Shown here: positions 5,341 to 14,654 of the stretch, one piece after another | How positions within the stretch are numbered: the first letter of the stretch is position 1 | How the letters are laid out: every line of letters starts with the position of its first letter | From: Arthrobacter sp. StoSoilB20 | GTDB lineage: Bacteria > Actinomycetota > Actinomycetes > Actinomycetales > Micrococcaceae | Assembly: GCF_019977295.1 (NCBI RefSeq) | Contig: NZ_AP024651.1 | Coordinates: 4,650,001-4,714,000, forward strand | Direction of reading: 5' to 3' | Length of the DNA stretch: 64,000 nt | Program-made: the position numbers and the translations under genes | Notes under the pieces: generated by a model | Seen by the model: only the letters and a program-made list of their open reading frames with translations | What the model was told of the DNA's origin: nothing | Databases searched by the model: none

Positions 5341-6549
5341 ATGGTTGCAGCAGCACTGCAAGAGGGAGCAATAGTCCTGGACCCCTTCTCCGTAAGGATG
5401 GTCCTCGGCCTGGTCACCCTGGCCCTGATCGTCATTTCCTGTGTGTCGTCCCAGCGGAGACACTCGGCATACGCCGGGTGGTGGCGGGTTGCCTTATGCC
5501 TGTTCTTTGTTGGCAACGCCGCCTTCCTCCTGAACGGGACGGCCTCGCAATTCTGGGCAAACCCCCTGGGCAAGGCCCTGGTTGTTGCCGGTACCTTCTG
5601 CCTCTGGGCGGGAGCCCGTACCTTAAGGGACCGCCGCGCCACCCCGTGGCTCCTGGTACCGGCTCCCCTGCTCAGCGGACTTGCCTCGGCATTGGATGAC
5701 CCGGGATCCGGAGTATGGTCGGGCGGCTTGACGTACCTCAGCCTGACCATGCTGGGAATCAGCCTGGCCGCCGTGGAACTGTGGTTCGCGAGGCCCGGAC
5801 GCTCGCGGATCACCACGTTCCTGTCCTTGATTGCCGCGCTGACTGCCTTGTACTACTTGTCCCGCGGCATCACCTTTATGGCAGCCGGGCCCAACAGCGC
5901 GGTGTTCCTTGACTTCTTTGGTTACGCGCCGGCGGCCCTCATGCATTTGATGCTCCTGGTGTCCGTGTCCTCCACCATGAATACGCTCAGCAACAAGCAG
6001 CTGATCAAACGCCTCCGGGAACGTGCCGAGCGTGACCACCTGACGGGCCTGCTCAACAGGGGCGCGTTCCTGGACCTGGCAGCCCGGTCCCTCGCCCGGC
6101 CGTCCGGCCGGGGGGCAGCTTTGATCCTCGCCGACCTGGACCATTTCAAGGCAATCAACGACGAGCATGGGCATTCAGCCGGTGACGCAGCCCTCCGCGC
6201 CTTCGCTGCAGCCTGCACCGCCTCGGTCAGGTCAACAGACCTCGTAGGGCGATATGGAGGGGAGGAGTTTATCCTCTTCCTGCCCGGCGCCTCCCAACAG
6301 AGGGCCGAGGCAATCGCCTCCGAAATCAGTGACCACCTGCAGTCCATGAGGGGTCCGGACGGGTTGCCCTTCCCGACAGTGAGCTATGGCGTGACCTCCA
6401 CGGGAACCGACGTCCAGGACCTTTCCTTCATGATCAACGTGGCCGACGCCGCCCTCTACAGCGCGAAGGCGCAGGGGCGGAACCGGGTGGTGGGAGCCGT
6501 GCCTGCGGGAACGGAACCCGCGCCCGAAGCCAGCCGTCCGCCGTCGTAA
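5341..6549 (+). CDS. membrane-bound diguanylate cyclase (GGDEF)
   Basis: 402 residues. The first ~215 form about seven hydrophobic helices with no recognised sensor family. A linker (LIKRLRERAERDHLTGLLNRGAF) leads into a complete GGDEF domain that makes c-di-GMP from two GTP. The signature is GGEEF at 306-310, with DLDHFKAINDEHGHSAGD upstream. RSTD at 297-300 lies five residues before the signature, the spacing of the allosteric I-site, so product inhibition is probably intact. There is no EAL or HD-GYP domain. The ATG at 5341 has only a weak ribosome site, so the true start is uncertain by some codons. Monocistronic. Confidence 0.9.
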   Translation: MVAAALQEGAIVLDPFSVRMVLGLVTLALIVISCVSSQRRHSAYAGWWRVALCLFFVGNAAFLLNGTASQFWANPLGKALVVAGTFCLWAGARTLRDRRATPWLLVPAPLLSGLASALDDPGSGVWSGGLTYLSLTMLGISLAAVELWFARPGRSRITTFLSLIAALTALYYLSRGITFMAAGPNSAVFLDFFGYAPAALMHLMLLVSVSSTMNTLSNKQLIKRLRERAERDHLTGLLNRGAFLDLAARSLARPSGRGAALILADLDHFKAINDEHGHSAGDAALRAFAAACTASVRSTDLVGRYGGEEFILFLPGASQQRAEAIASEISDHLQSMRGPDGLPFPTVSYGVTSTGTDVQDLSFMINVADAALYSAKAQGRNRVVGAVPAGTEPAPEASRPPS

Positions 6550-6661
6550 GTTCACATAGGTTGGTATCGCCTGGTGTGGCCTTATGCCTAGGCTGTGGGT
6601 GGCAAGTGAGAGTGGTTCCCACCCGTGAATCACGGAGGACAAACATTAACGGAGAGCGACG

Positions 6662-7441
6662 ATGACTGAAGCAAACACCAATGCACGTGCACAAAAGCTG
6701 AAAGCCCTGCACGAGGCCCCCGAAATCCTGAGCGTGGTGAACGTGTGGGACGCCATCAGCGCCCGGACCATCGCAGAGCTTCCTGGGACGCAGGCGATTG
6801 CGACGGCAGGACATTCCATTGCGGCGTCCTTCGGATATGCCGACGGGACCATGCCTTTGGACGTCGCGCTGGATGGAGTAAAGCGGATTGTCGACGCCGT
6901 AGATCACCCTGTCAGTGCAGACCTGGACGATGGCTACGACAACCCGGCCGAGACCATCCGCCGGGCGATTGCGATTGGAGTGGTCGGTGCAAACGTCGAA
7001 GACCGACTCCGTCCCTTCGACGAAGCCGTTGCTCGCGTCCAGGCAATCATCTCGGCTGCCGCAGATGAAGGAATCGCATTCCAGCTCAATGCGCGCACCG
7101 ATGCCATTGTGCGGGGCGGCGACCGCCCCATTGAAGAAAGCATCCAGGATGCCATCGCCCGCGGCCGCGCTTTCCTCGACGCCGGTGCTGCCCTGGTCTT
7201 CGTGCCCGGCGCCATGACCCGTGAGGTCATCGAGCCGCTGGTTGAAGGCCTCGGCCACGGCAAGCTTTCGGTGATCGGCGCCCCGGGAGCCCTTCCGGCT
7301 GCAGAACTCCAGGAACTCGGTGTGGCCCGGGTGTCCTACGGTCCGTTCACCCAGCGCGTGGCCTTGCGGGCACTGCAGGATCTTGCCTCGGATCTTTACG
7401 GCTCCGGCGTGATCCCGACCGACACTCCGGCGCTGAACTAG
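6662..7441 (+). CDS. isocitrate lyase/phosphoenolpyruvate mutase family protein
   Basis: 259 residues, TIM-barrel enzyme of the ICL/PEP mutase superfamily. The metal/substrate signatures are visible: SADLDDGYDN, ANVEDR and FQLNARTDA. The KKCGH-type catalytic Cys loop of isocitrate and methylisocitrate lyases is not present, so a C-C lyase or hydrolase acting on another 2-oxo acid (oxaloacetate hydrolase-like or carboxyphosphonoenolpyruvate mutase-like) is more likely; the exact reaction is open. GGAGAG lies 8 nt before the ATG. It is convergent with the LysR gene at 7485, and no phosphonate genes are nearby. Confidence 0.8.
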   Translation: MTEANTNARAQKLKALHEAPEILSVVNVWDAISARTIAELPGTQAIATAGHSIAASFGYADGTMPLDVALDGVKRIVDAVDHPVSADLDDGYDNPAETIRRAIAIGVVGANVEDRLRPFDEAVARVQAIISAAADEGIAFQLNARTDAIVRGGDRPIEESIQDAIARGRAFLDAGAALVFVPGAMTREVIEPLVEGLGHGKLSVIGAPGALPAAELQELGVARVSYGPFTQRVALRALQDLASDLYGSGVIPTDTPALN

Positions 7442-7484
7442 CCGGGCCACTCCTGGCCTGTTCCGTCGGTGGCGGCGGGACAGG

Positions 7485-8408
7485 TCAGGAGCCGGAGCGG
7501 GTGTCGAAGGCAGCTGCGGATTCCCGCAGAAGCCGGGCCACCGTGTCCACGGGCAGGCTCGCTGCCCGACGGCGATCGAAGCGTCGCAGGGCGATGTGCC
7601 GGGTGCCCAAACCAGGAACGTCCAGGATGTCCACATGGTCGTGGACCACTCCCGTGAGCGCAAGGGTGGGCACAATGGCCACCCCCTCACCGGCAGCGAC
7701 GAGTGCCAGCGCCGTCAGGGTGTCGTGGTACTGATGAACAGTCTCAATCCGTGCCCCCGTGGAGTGCCGGAGGCGTCCGAGCACTGCGGTATTGGCTGCT
7801 GATGACTCCACCCCCAGCCAGGGCAAGTGCAAGCGGCTGAGATCGATGTTATCCGTGCCCAGCAGGCTGCCTGCGGGCACCACAAGTTTCCACGGCTCAT
7901 CCATCAAGGGCTCCTGGACCATTCCGGCGGCCATCGGATGCTGCTCTGCCGCCGTCGAGTCCTGTTCGATCACCACGGCATCGAGCTGGCGCTGGCGAAT
8001 CAGCCTCATCACCGCAGGGAAGCTGTCCTCCACGATCTGGATCTGCAGCTGGGGGTATTGGCTGCGCCATTCCGGAAGGCGCGGGATCACTACTGTGCGC
8101 ATGAAGCTGGTGAAGCCGCCCACCCGTACAACGCCTGCGATATTCACTTCGCTCTGCATCCGGGCCCTTGCGACGTTGAGCGCACGCTCTATCTCTTCCC
8201 CCGCCTCTGCCATGGCCAGGCCCGCGGGTGTGAGCACTGACCCTTTGGGGGTTCGAAGGAGCAGCGACTGCCCCGCCTCGGCCTCAAGTTTGCTCAACTG
8301 CTGGGACACCGCGGAGGGCGTAATGCGCAGTTCATCGGCAGCTGCGAGGACGCCTCCGGTACGGGCGACAGCAAGAAGGACCAAGAGTCTGCGGGGGTCC
8401 ACATCCAT
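7485..8408 (-). CDS. LysR-family transcriptional regulator
   Basis: 307 residues. An N-terminal winged helix-turn-helix (about 1-60: RRLLVLLAVARTGGVLAAAD, then TPSAVSQQLSKLE) is followed by a periplasmic-binding-protein-like effector domain to the end. The gene points away from the small membrane-protein gene at 8592, so the 183-bp gap between them is the natural place for its binding site, and dyads are visible there. Effector and targets are unknown; the convergent PEP-mutase-family gene is another possible target. Confidence 0.9.
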   Translation of the reverse strand: MDVDPRRLLVLLAVARTGGVLAAADELRITPSAVSQQLSKLEAEAGQSLLLRTPKGSVLTPAGLAMAEAGEEIERALNVARARMQSEVNIAGVVRVGGFTSFMRTVVIPRLPEWRSQYPQLQIQIVEDSFPAVMRLIRQRQLDAVVIEQDSTAAEQHPMAAGMVQEPLMDEPWKLVVPAGSLLGTDNIDLSRLHLPWLGVESSAANTAVLGRLRHSTGARIETVHQYHDTLTALALVAAGEGVAIVPTLALTGVVHDHVDILDVPGLGTRHIALRRFDRRRAASLPVDTVARLLRESAAAFDTRSGS

Positions 8409-8429
8409 GTTAAGCGCTCCTAAACTCCG

Positions 8430-8462
8430 TCTTCAGAAGATTGCAATTGATCTAAAGGCAAT
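8430..8462. promoter_or_regulatory. candidate LysR-type operator
   Basis: ATTGC at 8440-8444 and GCAAT at 8458-8462 form an interrupted dyad (13-nt spacer), directly upstream of the lysR start. An overlapping palindrome TCTTCAGAAGA lies at 8430-8440. The position fits an autoregulatory LysR site that could also act on the divergent gene at 8592. Only the symmetry and location support it. Confidence 0.35.
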
Positions 8463-8591
8463 CCTCGCCCAATATTGACTCAAAAGCACGATTCAGCCTC
8501 GAAATACCGATCAGCTAATCAAGCCTCCACTCCGGATCACACGCCGCTCACCGGCGCCTTCCGGGGTGCCCAAATCCCGAAAGGAAATCCC

Positions 8592-8954
8592 ATGGAACTG
8601 CTGTTCGAAATCACCGGCTGGGCCGGCGCAGTGGCAATGCTCGGCGGCTACTTGTCAGTGTCCATGGGCTGGTTGCAGGCAGGCACCACCTTCCAAACCG
8701 TCAACCTCCTTGGTTCGTGCGCTTTCATCATCAATGGGACGCTCCACGGTGCATGGCCTTCCGTAGTGACCAACGTGGCCTGGTTCCTGATCTCAGCAGT
8801 GTCGCTGCTCCGGATGCGGGCAAAGGAACGGCAGGAGCGCGAGGCTCAGCAGGCACAGGTTCAGGAACGGGCTCAAAGGACCTCCTCCCTTGGCCCGGAC
8901 ACCGCCGCCCAGGTCATCGTCGCGGCCACCCGCCCCAGCGCCATCGCCGCATAG
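8592..8954 (+). CDS. small membrane protein, CBU_0592-like
   Basis: 120 residues. The start at 8592 is chosen because AAAGGA lies 7 nt upstream; the longer frame from 8475 has no ribosome site. Three hydrophobic helices (LFEITGWAGAVAMLGGYL, TVNLLGSCAFIINGTLHG, VVTNVAWFLISAVSLL) are followed by a charged Glu/Gln-rich cytoplasmic tail and a disordered end. The three-helix pattern with GW, LGGY and NLLGS signatures resembles the CBU_0592-type membrane domain, whose function is unknown. Divergent from the LysR gene. Confidence 0.7.
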   Translation: MELLFEITGWAGAVAMLGGYLSVSMGWLQAGTTFQTVNLLGSCAFIINGTLHGAWPSVVTNVAWFLISAVSLLRMRAKERQEREAQQAQVQERAQRTSSLGPDTAAQVIVAATRPSAIAA

Positions 8955-10114: not shown

Positions 10115-10227
10115 CAGGCGTCGCGGGCAAGGCCGCGTCAGACCGGCGTCGCGGGTCAGGCCCCGCCAGACCGGCGTCGGGGCCACGCAGCGTCAGTCCG
10201 GCGTCGCGGGCCACGCAGCGTCAGTCC
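10113..10227. repeat. degenerate tandem repeat, ~28-bp unit, four copies
   Basis: A unit built on CAGWCCGGCGTCGCGGG and a tail such as CCACGCAGCGT recurs about every 27-28 bp between two convergent genes. Copies differ at several positions. It overlaps no recognised frame and has no spacer structure. It may act as a terminator or be a lineage-specific intergenic repeat. Confidence 0.6.
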
Positions 10228-10421
10228 ACAAACTCCGACTGTGTCTCGATAAAATCCCAGTCCGCCTCCGTCAGCACACCGCTGACCTTGTCCGGATGGG
10301 GACCCCCGGCTTCGGCAATATGCTGCAGTACGGGCAGGGGAAGCTCATCGACGCGCAGGTTTTCCCGCAACCATTCTTTGCTGTCCAGGTGCAGATCGAG
10401 CCACCACATGAAAATTTCCAT
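10221..10421 (-). CDS. small hypothetical protein, 66 aa
   Basis: I do not recognise this one. It encodes an acidic 66-residue protein starting MEIFMWWLDLHLDSKEWL and ending WDFIETQSEFVD, with no signal peptide or membrane helix. GAAAGAAGG lies about 7-8 nt before the ATG. Convergent with the luciferase-like gene and divergent from the CHAT gene. Codon use and the ribosome site favour a real gene; a function cannot be assigned. Confidence 0.55.
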   Translation of the reverse strand: MEIFMWWLDLHLDSKEWLRENLRVDELPLPVLQHIAEAGGPHPDKVSGVLTEADWDFIETQSEFVD

Positions 10422-10612
10422 CGCGGACCGCCTTCTTTCGGATGTGCCGTGGGTTCAAGTACGCCGCAGGCACGGATTAACCGTAGGCCGGGGCGGGGGT
10501 GTCTACAAGGGTCCGGCCCTTGTGGCCGGCCGCGCTTAGGGCCACTCTGTTCCTAGGGGAATTCCCGGCGTACGCTTCGTTGGCCGGACTCCCGTCACAC
10601 AAGGGATCCGCC

Positions 10613-13600
10613 ATGGACTGTGACATGGAGCTGGAGATTGATGCCGGCTCTGGACGCGGCGAATATGCGGTGCACGTGGTCCGTGCACCGGCGGGAGGCC
10701 ACGCTTCGGGCACGTTCACCCTGGACGTGGATGGCATCCTGGAACGGCTCCCCCAACTTGAAGCCACGGTCCTGGCCTCTGCCGTGGCTGCCCGAAGGAC
10801 CATGCCGGTGGCTGAAATGGCCGTCCGGGAAGTGGGACAACAGTTATTCCAGGCCCTGTTCACCCGCGAGGTTTACGGCACGTACCGGGCCAGCCTGGGC
10901 GCCGCGCAGCACGCCGGCCAGCAGCTCAGGGTGGTTCTAAGGTTGTCGGCGCCGGAACTGGCCACCATGCCCTGGGAGACCTTGTTCGACCCCGAAACTG
11001 AAACCTACCTCTGCCAGACCGAGCCCCTCCTCCGCCACATCCCCGCACCGGACTACAACCTGAATCCCTTGGATGTGGAGCCCCCTCTGCGCATCCTGGG
11101 AATTGTTGCCTCACCGCGGGACCTGCCCTCATTGGATGTCGCTGCCGAGAAAGAACACTTGGCCCGGGCCTTGGCTGGCCCCGTTTCCGAAGGCCGGGTG
11201 GAGCTGGTCTGGGCGAAAACGGGGACCTGGGATGATGTGCAGTCCTTGCTGTTGGCCGGGCCTTGGCATGTGGTCCATTTTGTGGGCCACGGCGACTACG
11301 ACTCCCGAACCGACGAAGGCAGGATAGCCCTGGTGGGTCCCGACGGCAGGGCAGCCATGGTCCGCGCCGTCAGGTTGATGGCCCTGCTCAGCGTCGCCGC
11401 GCCACGCCCGAGGTTGGTGGTGCTGAACTCCTGCTCATCCGGGGAAATGGGCCAATCAGACCTTTTCTCAGGGACGGCGTCGGCCCTGGTCAGGAGCGGC
11501 ATTGGCGCCGTCGCTGCCATGCAGTTCGCCATCAGCGACTACGCCGCCATCGCCTTCGCCCACGGCTTCTACGCCGCGATCGCCAACGGCCGCACCGTGG
11601 ATGAGGCGGCGCGCGTCGGCAGGATCTCAGTCATGGCCAGCCCCGACGGAACGCTCGAATGGGTCACCCCGGCCCTCTACGTCCGCGGCGGCACCACCCA
11701 ACTGTTCACGTTGAAAGGAACACCGCGCACTCCGGCGGCAGTTGAAGGCACGGCGCAGGTTGGAAGCGGGGCGTCCGTTGAAAGTTCGACGGCGGCCAGC
11801 ACCCCGGCCGGCCAAGCTGCGGCACCAACCGACGCAGGTTCGACGGCGGCCAGCACCCCGGGCGGCCAAGCTGCGGCACCAGCGGACGCAGGTTCGACGG
11901 CGGCCAACACCCCGGGCGGCCAAGCTGCGGCACCAGCCAACGCAGGTTCGACGGCGTCACCGCCCGACCCGGTAAAGGACCCCCGTTTACCGACCCAAAC
12001 GGCACCATGGGCATCTCCTCAGGTACCGGGCAGCCCCGGGCAAGGCACACAGCCCGGCGCCAACTCGCCGCAGGCCAGCGCCGGGCAAGGCCATATCGGG
12101 CAGGCCAACGACGGGCAGGCAGATACCAATCCAGTGCCCCAACCGCGGGCCGCCCAAGAGCAGGCCATGAAACGGGCGCAACTGAGGGCGCTGTATGTCC
12201 AAGCTTCCGCCGAGTTGAGGGCCCGCCGACTGGAACAGGCCGTGGAACTCTTCGAAGACCTCCTGACGCTTGAGCCCGGGTACCGGGACGCGACAACCCT
12301 GAGAGACAACGCGAGGCAAAGACTGGAACTGGATCGCACTTATCGCGAAGCACTGGAGGCTGAGGAGGCCGAAGATTGGCTGGCCGCAGCAGATGGCTTC
12401 GCCGCGGTCCAGGACCACCCCGCATTCCCTGACGCTGCCTCCCGACGGCAGGACTGCGAGCGCCGCCAACGAATCTCGGACCTGCAAGGTGAGCTCCGAT
12501 ACCATTCCTCCCTCGGCTCCTGGGAGGCGGTGCTGGACGTTTCAGCAGAGCTGGCTACCGTGGATCCGCTCGCCGCAGATCCGGACGGGCTCGCAACGGC
12601 AGCCCGGGAAGAACTGGAGAAAGCCAGGCCCACGGAGCCTTCGAACGTTGAGGTGGCCGGGACCGGGATGGATGCGGTGTCCGGGGAAAGGAAGCCGGAG
12701 GGCTCGTACACGGCAGCCGATCCCCCGGTTCGGCCGGCACGGAAAACGGCGGCATTTACCGCGCCCTCAACGGACCCGGGTCAAGCCCGTCGCCCATTGA
12801 AAGGCTCCGGCCGGACAATAGCCCCATCCGCAACAGGCCCGGCCCCCTCCGCCACCGCGGGCGAGGTCAGCGCACCCCCAGCCACAACGCACCCAGCCAC
12901 ATCCACATCCAAGGCCGAGGCACCCGCTGCCATCCCGCCGTCGAACGCCGGCGTTTCAAGAGGCGAACCGTCGATAACCGCCGCCCCAACACCAAGCCCT
13001 TCCGTGGCGGTCCCCGGAGACGGGCTGACGACACCCCGGTGGATGCCGCTGTTGTGGGGAGGTGTCGCACTGGTGGTGGCCGGCGGCCTTGGCGCATGCT
13101 TCGCGGTCTACTTCCTCTGGCTGGACGACAACTATTGGTACGAGAGCGGGGGCGATGGGTCCCTCCGCGTCGTCTACGGCCTGGTGGCACCCCTGGGGTA
13201 CGTGCTGTTGGCGTTGGCGGGACTTCCCGACCGCACCGCCGCCGGCAGGGTGGCGATGGTGGGCGTGGTGGTTTCCGGGGCTGTTTTTGGGCTTTCCGGA
13301 CTCAACGAAACGGTGGACGCCACCGCCGTCGTTGCCAGCTTTGTGCATGCGGGCCTGGGCGCGTGGGCGGGAATCCTGGCCTTGAGGTCCCGCACCTCCA
13401 CGCCGTTCGGATGGCTGCTCATGTGGCCCACGGTGACAGTCCCGCTGGTGTGGGTGCAGGACAAGGGAGTCTTCCTTGAATCCTGGTACCGGACGCATGC
13501 GTACTTTGTGTTGATTCAGCTTGTGGTTGTTTGTGCAGCGGGGGTCGGACTGGTGGTGGCGGCCCGCCGCCTTGCCGCAGCGGAGAAGGGACAGGAACAT

Positions 13601-13615
13601 GAGCAGGTTGGTTGA
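10613..13615 (+). CDS. CHAT-domain protease with helical repeats and C-terminal membrane domain
   Basis: 1000 residues from the ATG at 10613 (AAGGGA 7 nt upstream; an in-frame GTG at 10499 lacks a site). Residues ~1-365 form a CHAT domain, the caspase-like peptidase fold. The catalytic dyad is visible as His226 in HFVGHGDYD and Cys274 in VVLNSCSSGE, with DLFSGTASALVRSGIGAV after it. Residues ~375-510 are an Ala/Pro/Gly linker with three near-identical 18-residue repeats. Residues ~520-690 are TPR-like helices (EQAVELFEDLLTLEPGYRDA; AEDWLAAADGFAAV). A second low-complexity linker leads to about six membrane helices from ~812 to 990. It overlaps the Trypco1 gene by 17 bp. CHAT proteases are death or processing effectors in bacterial conflict systems; here activation presumably occurs at the membrane (inference). 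Confidence 0.88.
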   Translation: MDCDMELEIDAGSGRGEYAVHVVRAPAGGHASGTFTLDVDGILERLPQLEATVLASAVAARRTMPVAEMAVREVGQQLFQALFTREVYGTYRASLGAAQHAGQQLRVVLRLSAPELATMPWETLFDPETETYLCQTEPLLRHIPAPDYNLNPLDVEPPLRILGIVASPRDLPSLDVAAEKEHLARALAGPVSEGRVELVWAKTGTWDDVQSLLLAGPWHVVHFVGHGDYDSRTDEGRIALVGPDGRAAMVRAVRLMALLSVAAPRPRLVVLNSCSSGEMGQSDLFSGTASALVRSGIGAVAAMQFAISDYAAIAFAHGFYAAIANGRTVDEAARVGRISVMASPDGTLEWVTPALYVRGGTTQLFTLKGTPRTPAAVEGTAQVGSGASVESSTAASTPAGQAAAPTDAGSTAASTPGGQAAAPADAGSTAANTPGGQAAAPANAGSTASPPDPVKDPRLPTQTAPWASPQVPGSPGQGTQPGANSPQASAGQGHIGQANDGQADTNPVPQPRAAQEQAMKRAQLRALYVQASAELRARRLEQAVELFEDLLTLEPGYRDATTLRDNARQRLELDRTYREALEAEEAEDWLAAADGFAAVQDHPAFPDAASRRQDCERRQRISDLQGELRYHSSLGSWEAVLDVSAELATVDPLAADPDGLATAAREELEKARPTEPSNVEVAGTGMDAVSGERKPEGSYTAADPPVRPARKTAAFTAPSTDPGQARRPLKGSGRTIAPSATGPAPSATAGEVSAPPATTHPATSTSKAEAPAAIPPSNAGVSRGEPSITAAPTPSPSVAVPGDGLTTPRWMPLLWGGVALVVAGGLGACFAVYFLWLDDNYWYESGGDGSLRVVYGLVAPLGYVLLALAGLPDRTAAGRVAMVGVVVSGAVFGLSGLNETVDATAVVASFVHAGLGAWAGILALRSRTSTPFGWLLMWPTVTVPLVWVQDKGVFLESWYRTHAYFVLIQLVVVCAAGVGLVVAARRLAAAEKGQEHEQVG
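11780..11957 (+). repeat. 54-bp in-frame tandem repeat (3 copies plus partial)
   Basis: Units begin at 11780, 11834 and 11888, with a partial fourth at 11942. Each encodes about 18 residues of the type AGSTAASTPGGQAAAPAD. The second and third are nearly identical in DNA, so the array can change copy number without shifting frame. It lies in the linker between the CHAT domain and the helical repeats. Confidence 0.85.
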
Positions 13616-13940
13616 ATTCACTACCGACGACGGCGGCACGGTAGTTGTGGAGGTCGCTAACGCCGCGGGGAGCCTGGTAACAAGGGGCGGGGATCACGCC
13701 GGGGACCATTCGGGGGTCTTTGCCCGGGCCCAGCAGACCTTTGAGCGGGCCCTGGCCCATGTGCGCCCAGCGGTCCAAGGGGTGATCGATGAGCTTCTGA
13801 GCCTGGAAAACCGTCCGGATGAGGTAAGCGTGGAATTCGGGATAGACCTCCATGCCGAGGCGGGTGCGTTCATCGCTTCGGCGAGTACGGCATCGAACTT
13901 CAAGGTGCGACTGACGTGGAACAAGCCGACGGAAACCTGA
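13599..13940 (+). CDS. Trypco1 / CU044_2847 family protein
   Basis: 113 residues starting at the ATG at 13599, inside the end of the CHAT gene (17-bp overlap, ACAGGA ribosome site), so translationally coupled. The strand pattern RLVEFTTDDGGTVVVEV at the start and SVEFGIDLHAEAGAFIASA then NFKVRLTW at the end is the CU044_2847 pattern, also called trypsin-co-occurring domain 1. This domain is repeatedly linked to proteases, NTPases and effector-associated domains in predicted bacterial conflict systems. The likely role is adaptor or sensor for the CHAT protease. The family call is by pattern recognition. Confidence 0.85.
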   Translation: MSRLVEFTTDDGGTVVVEVANAAGSLVTRGGDHAGDHSGVFARAQQTFERALAHVRPAVQGVIDELLSLENRPDEVSVEFGIDLHAEAGAFIASASTASNFKVRLTWNKPTET

Positions 13941-13954
13941 TGCCCCTACGCCTC

Positions 13955-13969
13955 TGAACAGCCTGTTCA
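13955..13969. promoter_or_regulatory. 15-bp palindrome upstream of the stress-protein gene
   Basis: TGAACAG-C-CTGTTCA is a perfect 7-1-7 inverted repeat, 30 bp before the start of the universal stress protein gene. Its GAAC/GTTC half-sites are spaced by five bases, not the four of an actinobacterial LexA box, so it is more likely an operator for another regulator. Confidence 0.35.
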
Positions 13970-13998
13970 TTGGGGCACCCCGGCGCAACAATAAGGGT

Positions 13999-14505
13999 AT
14001 GGCTGTGGAAGATTTCAGCGGACCGATTCCCCTGGTGGTGGGAGTTCTTCCGGACCAGCACGTGGAGGTCCTGCAGACCGCCCGGACGTTGGCCGAGCGG
14101 CTCGGCGTGCCGTTGGTGTGCGCCTATGTGGACGAGGCCAGCTACCTCGTTGAGTGGGACCCCTCGCGGGAGACACACCGGATGTCGCTGCACCCTGAGA
14201 AGGACAACGCCGACGTCGAAGCCGTCCGGGGTGACCTCGGCAAAGCGATCGCGGAAGCGATGGACGGCGGCACCGCCGAGTGGACGTTGCGTCTGCTGGC
14301 GGGAGATCCGGCACGGGCACTGGGCAGGCTTGCCGCTGATATCAACGCTTCCATGATCATTGTGGGAACACCCGAGCCCGGGTTTGGCCACCGGATTTCC
14401 GAGGCCCTCAACGGCTCCGTGGCCGCTTGGTTGAGCCATCACCAACGTCGGCCGGTGCTGATTGTGCCCCAGAAAAAGCGGCCGGAAGCTCCCCATGGAA
14501 ACTAA
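13999..14505 (+). CDS. universal stress protein (UspA family)
   Basis: 168 residues with one Usp fold: an N-terminal strand IPLVVGVLPDQHVEVL, then LAERLGVPLVCAYVDEASY and LLAGDPARALGRLAAD, and the ATP-binding-type end MIIVGTPEPGFGHRISEALNGSVAAWLSHHQRRPVLIVP. The GxxG-(9x)-G(S/T) signature is partly kept (G-PEPG...GSVAAWL), so nucleotide binding is plausible. The ATG at 13999 has AAGGG very close; a GTG at 14005 would be better spaced. It is followed by a strong terminator. A 58-bp gap and a palindrome separate it from the Trypco1 gene, so it may have its own promoter. Confidence 0.85.
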   Translation: MAVEDFSGPIPLVVGVLPDQHVEVLQTARTLAERLGVPLVCAYVDEASYLVEWDPSRETHRMSLHPEKDNADVEAVRGDLGKAIAEAMDGGTAEWTLRLLAGDPARALGRLAADINASMIIVGTPEPGFGHRISEALNGSVAAWLSHHQRRPVLIVPQKKRPEAPHGN

Positions 14506-14596
14506 AGCGAAAGTAGTTATTCGAGGTGGTGGCGAAGGGGTTGCGGGCAACGTAGAGTGATTACTGCAGGGTAGCGAAAGCCCCTGCTCAAAGGCC

Positions 14597-14635
14597 GCTC
14601 CGGAGTGCGTATCCCCCAATAACGCACTCCGGAGC
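14597..14635 (+). terminator. intrinsic terminator after the stress-protein gene
   Basis: GCTCCGGAGTGCGT (14597-14610) and ACGCACTCCGGAGC (14622-14635) form a perfect 14-bp stem with an 11-nt loop, followed by TCTTTTGTTT. Confidence 0.9.
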
Positions 14636-14654
14636 TCTTTTGTTTAAGCAACCT

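Follow-up and report, generated by a model that had tools for sequence, protein, structure and literature searches.

System 4, an EACC1-caspase two-gene membrane system prevalent in actinobacteria, is described in the available text of Kaur et al. (2020; PMC7159879) as carrying many alternative C-terminal domains, some of which join a transmembrane (TM) helix to an outside binding domain. These variable C-termini were read there as effectors deployed by auto-proteolysis, and the combination of a constant caspase-like core with a variable part was argued to mark conflict systems. The same text describes VMAP ternary systems, in which Trypco1-trypsin pairs occur with MoxR and vWA genes, and the available text of a second report (PMC10907252) mentions Trypco genes near caspase-like peptidases and a Thiohalocapsa CHAT/Trypco2 locus with a diversity-generating retroelement and a TIR domain. 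Here, we analyzed a stretch of 64,000 nucleotides from Arthrobacter sp. StoSoilB20 (hereafter the window), in which a gene for a CHAT protease of 1000 amino acids counted from ATG (10613..13615, + strand) overlaps by 17 bp (13599-13615) a Trypco1 gene of the CU044_2847 family, encoding 113 amino acids (13599..13940, + strand). We believe and doubt in about equal measure that this pair is a two-gene membrane surveillance protease.

As far as the available text of PMC7159879 goes, the pair resembles System 4 in having two genes, a constant N-terminal caspase-superfamily protease, a variable C-terminus and a small constant partner. It differs in that its protease is of the CHAT type (the EACC1-associated caspase profile NF047832 scored 17.3 bits against a cut-off of 140) and its partner lies downstream and matches only Trypco1/CU044_2847, whereas System 4 has a 5' EACC1 partner with one TM helix; the lectin and six-TM modules of the CHAT family described below are not mentioned for System 4 in that text. 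As in the VMAP ternary systems described there, Trypco1 adjoins a protease gene, but this protease does not have the trypsin fold, and Pfam recognised no MoxR, vWA or VMAP among the five flanking genes, the only ones scanned. Unlike the CBASS SAVED-CHAT filament protease (8tl0), the protein has no SAVED domain in Pfam (PDLC02016 matches residues 215-363 only) and carries a membrane module instead. Unlike Craspase TPR-CHAT/Csx29, its CHAT domain precedes the TPR part and membrane helices are present, and Pfam found no Cas7-11 gene among the same five flanking genes, the rest of the genome lying outside the search. A HetF profile (NF045509) gave 50.7 bits, far under its cut-off of 1200. The Thiohalocapsa locus likewise has a CHAT protein and a Trypco gene, and lectin-type variable domains occur in the targets treated in the available text of PMC10907252; however, that locus has Trypco2, the retroelement and TIR, and Thiohalocapsa is not an actinobacterium, whereas the window locus is actinobacterial and has Trypco1. 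No description of a CHAT-Trypco1 pair was found in the open-licence literature, supplements excluded, and Trypco does not occur in the available text of PMC8195603. The first-pass annotation, which had proposed an undescribed system, was therefore half right: the plan is known from System 4, and the CHAT-Trypco1 version of it was not found described.

The identity of both proteins was well supported by profile searches. Pfam CHAT (PF12770) matched residues 73-344 with 100.9 bits (cut-off 24, E 1e-28), and the small protein scored 98.4 bits for Trypco1 (PF19493; cut-off 24.6, E 4e-28) and 73.5 bits for NCBIfam CU044_2847 (cut-off 23). In sequence alignment with 8tl0, His226 (codon 11288..11290, + strand) corresponds to the His of a GHG motif and Cys274 (codon 11432..11434, + strand) to the Cys of an NxC motif; Cys274 was conserved in every one of the 94 aligned rows, window included, and His226 in 93 of them. 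The CHAT relative of Rhodococcus aetherivorans (L028:1693-4083) has Tyr at the His226 position and is therefore probably inactive. Judging from profile and aligned dyad, the window protein is a member of the CHAT peptidase family, and proteolysis is predicted. Thus, the CHAT domain with an intact His226/Cys274 dyad and the overlapping Trypco1 gene, both read from the letters in the first-pass annotation, held up. The window's genome has one copy each of the CHAT and Trypco1 domains at E up to 0.001. Of 14 control genomes, Methanosarcina acetivorans alone has CHAT, and it alone has Trypco1.

The AlphaFold2 model of the CHAT protein (mean predicted local distance difference test score, pLDDT, 77.7) gave a fuller picture of its layout. 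The CHAT fold occupies residues 1-367 (10613..11713, + strand), predicted to be cytosolic, with pLDDT mostly above 90 but 72 and 83 in two blocks spanning residues 271-290 around Cys274; it resembles SAVED-CHAT, Craspase TPR-CHAT and separase in structure comparison. A TPR-like helical repeat at residues 512-671 (12146..12625, + strand), where the single TPR match of Pfam lies below its cut-off, is also found in WD40-type relatives, and modelled disordered linkers lie on both sides of it. The first linker contains a 54-bp (18-residue) tandem repeat in 3.2 copies (11784..11956, + strand), which agrees with the repeat-rich linker noted earlier. The identity of this first linker to that of the window was 0.13-0.52 in 10 of the 11 relatives compared and 0.84 in the nearest, and linker coverage varies widely among relatives. 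Long hydrophobic helices at residues 810-998 were read as six TM helices, so that the earlier count of about six C-terminal membrane helices behind TPR-like helices is borne out by the model. This six-helix module (residues 805-998; 13025..13606, + strand) has no Pfam match. Loop charges around the helices are mostly consistent with both termini inside, and no hydrophobic N-terminus was seen by eye.

To characterize the family, we scanned genome contigs for relatives of the CHAT protein and worked with 79 loci (best 80 of 99). The CHAT part is 73-99% identical to that of the window in seven six-TM relatives and 59-70% in four relatives with unrelated C-termini. Across the family the C-terminus may be the six-TM module, a WD40 or NHL propeller, Kelch, or one predicted TM helix followed by 97-317 residues. 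Some relatives end in domains that are, by accession, of phosphatase type. On a CHAT tree of 81 rows, a crude architecture label changed 16 times (shuffled mean 40.9) and Trypco1 adjacency 13 times, and the six-TM class formed a single clade. With cleaned labels (four rows cut short by contig ends and one row with a doubtful TM removed, WD40 merged with other rows lacking TM helices; 76 rows), the C-terminal class changed 11 times. Judged from these sequences, the C-terminus is interchangeable on a constant CHAT core. BLAST grouped 19 of the 33 one-TM tails as one family, predicted to lie outside and having two invariant cysteines. Among solved structures, its profile matched PllA (5odu) at E 6e-7 and LecA/PA-IL at E 6e-4 to 2e-3 (7e-4 for LecA), and Pfam PA-IL matched 4 of the 19 at E up to 1, the best at 4e-6. 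By profile, the outside domains of these 19 relatives, not of the window protein, are lectin-like and related to PA-IL/LecA lectins; other one-TM relatives have NHL/propeller domains, also predicted outside. An alternative is that the swappable C-terminus is an effector, the CHAT domain cutting its own linker and freeing a membrane-active six-TM piece. The long disordered linkers flanking the TPR repeat in the model would suit this, as would the auto-proteolytic deployment proposed for System 4 in the available text of PMC7159879, but in relatives the lectin and beta-propeller modules belong to domain types that bind rather than kill, and no conserved cleavage site is apparent in the first linker because it is poorly conserved. 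We regard this alternative as improbable.

Comparison of the window with eight six-TM relatives revealed very different rates within the CHAT gene. The nonsynonymous rate (dN) was 0.016-0.067 for CHAT, 0.004-0.084 for Trypco1 and 0.011-0.091 for the flanking Usp, LLM and LysR genes where present, so that between close relatives the constraint on CHAT and Trypco1 is like that on the flanking genes. The membrane module had a dN of 0.119-0.381, exceeding the CHAT value 3.7- to 24-fold in all eight comparisons. Absolute values are rough because the synonymous rate (dS; 0.5-1.2 for CHAT, 0.75-1.7 for the membrane module) is near saturation. In one comparison (L005) the dS of the membrane module (1.67) exceeded that of CHAT (0.52), which hints at module replacement by recombination. 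For the TPR part (12146-12625), dS was saturated and not computable in five of the eight comparisons, and the protein sequence was well conserved. The membrane module had earlier been called pore-like, and nothing found points to a pore; its fast evolution and its exchange with lectin or propeller domains suggest that sensing fits it better.

The association of CHAT with Trypco1 was surveyed with a Trypco1 profile built in this analysis, gene calls and a limit of 1 kb. Trypco1 lay within this distance in 40 of the 79 loci, including all 19 of the six-TM class, and two more loci showed it at the level of open reading frames (ORFs; L066 and, weakly, L028). In the distinct set (42 Trypco1 genes in 41 loci, including the further distinct locus L096), 32 lie downstream and 6 upstream of CHAT on the same strand and 4 on the opposite strand, and 33 overlap CHAT or sit within 60 bp of it. 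The adjacency was found in several actinobacterial families and in both gene orders. Among 197 genomes of the window's family, 20 have CHAT, 12 Trypco1 and 6 both, with 4 adjacent; of 12 genomes of the window's genus in that draw, 3 have the pair and 9 lack CHAT, 4 of the latter carrying another Trypco1 elsewhere. In a tree built from 75 Trypco1 rows, which has few columns, long branches and 30 of 71 inner branches open, the CHAT-linked label changed 4 times, compared with 24.2 in shuffles, and CHAT-linked sequences were largely separate from trypsin-linked ones.

One relative (G063) keeps the window's left flank (6001-8816), a patch (10220-10443) and the Usp region (13978-14649) at 79-86% identity and has no match longer than 60 bp to 10444-13977, CHAT and Trypco1 thus being jointly absent; it also lacks the luciferase-like gene. 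A 66-amino-acid ORF read by eye (window:10221-10421, - strand) was matched in seven of seven relatives within about 5 kb of Usp. In three of these the site is empty, the small ORF and Usp being at most 200 bp apart, and in four other genes intervene, those scanned being of transport or redox types, a phosphatase, or without a Pfam match. The gap between this ORF and Usp, which holds nothing, CHAT-Trypco1 or other genes, is thus a variable site. The joint absence of both genes in relatives and the recurrent adjacency sustain the two-gene membrane-tethered protease unit put forward in the first-pass annotation. Chance or hitchhiking, with Trypco1 having no functional tie to the window's CHAT gene, would draw on the other company that Trypco1 keeps. 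In a phylum sample of 396 genomes (39 Trypco1 matches in 25 genomes), at least 15 of the 39 have a Trypsin_2 match no more than 1 kb away and only 3 adjoin CHAT; nine loci of the window's family have Trypco1 without adjoining CHAT, and in the four scanned the neighbours covered by the scan were metabolic enzymes or a helicase (sugar, phosphoribosyltransferase, AMP-binding or similar genes at L098, L099, L102 and L106), no protease gene being recognised among these neighbours. On these family and phylum counts CHAT recurs as a partner of Trypco1 but accounts for a minority of cases. The tight spacing, the adjacency across families in both orders and the joint absence in G063 argue against chance or hitchhiking, which we consider very improbable.

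We propose that the membrane module would sense a membrane or envelope event, that the TPR part may relay the signal or cluster the protein, and that CHAT on the cytosolic face would then cleave itself and/or cell proteins, Trypco1 serving as a dedicated regulator (adaptor, inhibitor or first substrate). The outcome might most likely be a conflict response in which growth is arrested or the cell dies, although the indications for this step are weak. A role in conflict or cell death is plausible, and we lean to it on the argument in the available text of Kaur et al. (PMC7159879) about variable parts on caspase-like cores. Alternatively, the protein might be an envelope or developmental signalling protease, in which membrane-held CHAT reports stress or a ligand and processes a regulator such as an anti-sigma factor or a division protein, with no killing. 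DdvA (8rot), by its title a transmembrane anti-sigma factor, offers a parallel. Together with the absence of defence neighbours, this parallel keeps the signalling reading alive. We know of no Trypco1 with DdvA. The patchy presence of CHAT and Trypco1 in the family and their joint losses argue against an essential regulator, and no sigma or anti-sigma gene was recognised by eye among recurrent neighbours; we judge signalling without killing to be unlikely, though not negligible.

Several observations weigh against a surveillance protease made of this pair. By gene calls, Trypco1 is missing from the 1 kb around CHAT in 39 of the 79 loci (among them the two with Trypco1 at ORF level, L023 with it at 1355 bp, and some cut off at that point by the end of the contig), so that CHAT may function on its own. 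The small share of CHAT among Trypco1 neighbours in the phylum sample also counts against the pair. CHAT and Trypco1 distances correlate weakly over 22 distant pairs (r=0.32, with 62 of 2000 permutations as high). The Trypco1 model is poor (pLDDT 57), and charges are not scarce in the third outer loop of the membrane module (mean K+R 2.15, D+E 2.23). The near-saturated dS weakens the rate comparisons, although the contrast inside the CHAT gene still stands. The surroundings of the pair recur among Micrococcaceae and therefore look vertically inherited. No defence island is recognisable: PADLOC matched 2 of 10 neighbours, both metabolic (an oxidoreductase and GlgB), and Pfam assigned the five flanking genes to metabolic, regulatory or transport types. 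Nor does the locus encode a separate killing effector.

A wider proposal, which we doubt somewhat more than we credit, is that the surveillance protease belongs to a previously unnamed actinobacterial receptor-protease family, in which a constant cytosolic CHAT with its own Trypco1 lineage would be joined to exchangeable sensors, among them outside LecA-like lectins, beta-propellers and, in the window, a rapidly changing six-helix module that would itself read a fast-varying membrane threat. If so, the family would be, by plan, a bacterial counterpart of death receptors coupled to caspases, and caspase-like proteases would form the cytosolic end of receptors at the bacterial cell surface, with an outer or membrane part that is exchanged around an unchanging protease and partner. 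Trypco1, which takes its name solely from its association with trypsin, would gain a second partner in a simple two-gene unit of a soil bacterium, where its role as adaptor, inhibitor or substrate could be tested, and one Trypco1 might serve four receptor genes in an array.

Such an array is seen in Agromyces ramosus (L039:4168-12040), where four consecutive CHAT-one-TM-lectin genes surround one Trypco1 gene. In Streptomyces, four CHAT genes that lack a Trypco1 are followed by genes of a small protein family reminiscent of EACC1 as described (L071:8244-8759, L072:8346-8774, L073:8603-9067 and L074:8346-8762); its members have one hydrophobic segment and gave no significant Pfam match. In the window, a universal stress protein (Usp) gene (13999-14505) lies just 3' of the pair; it is a neighbour in 17 loci and is kept upon pair loss. 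Finally, five Agromyces loci, three of which were scanned (L036:7998-9038, L039:12170-13255 and L041:7928-8947), have an NYN-LOTUS (RNase-type) gene beside the CHAT gene or genes, and in four of the five it follows immediately.
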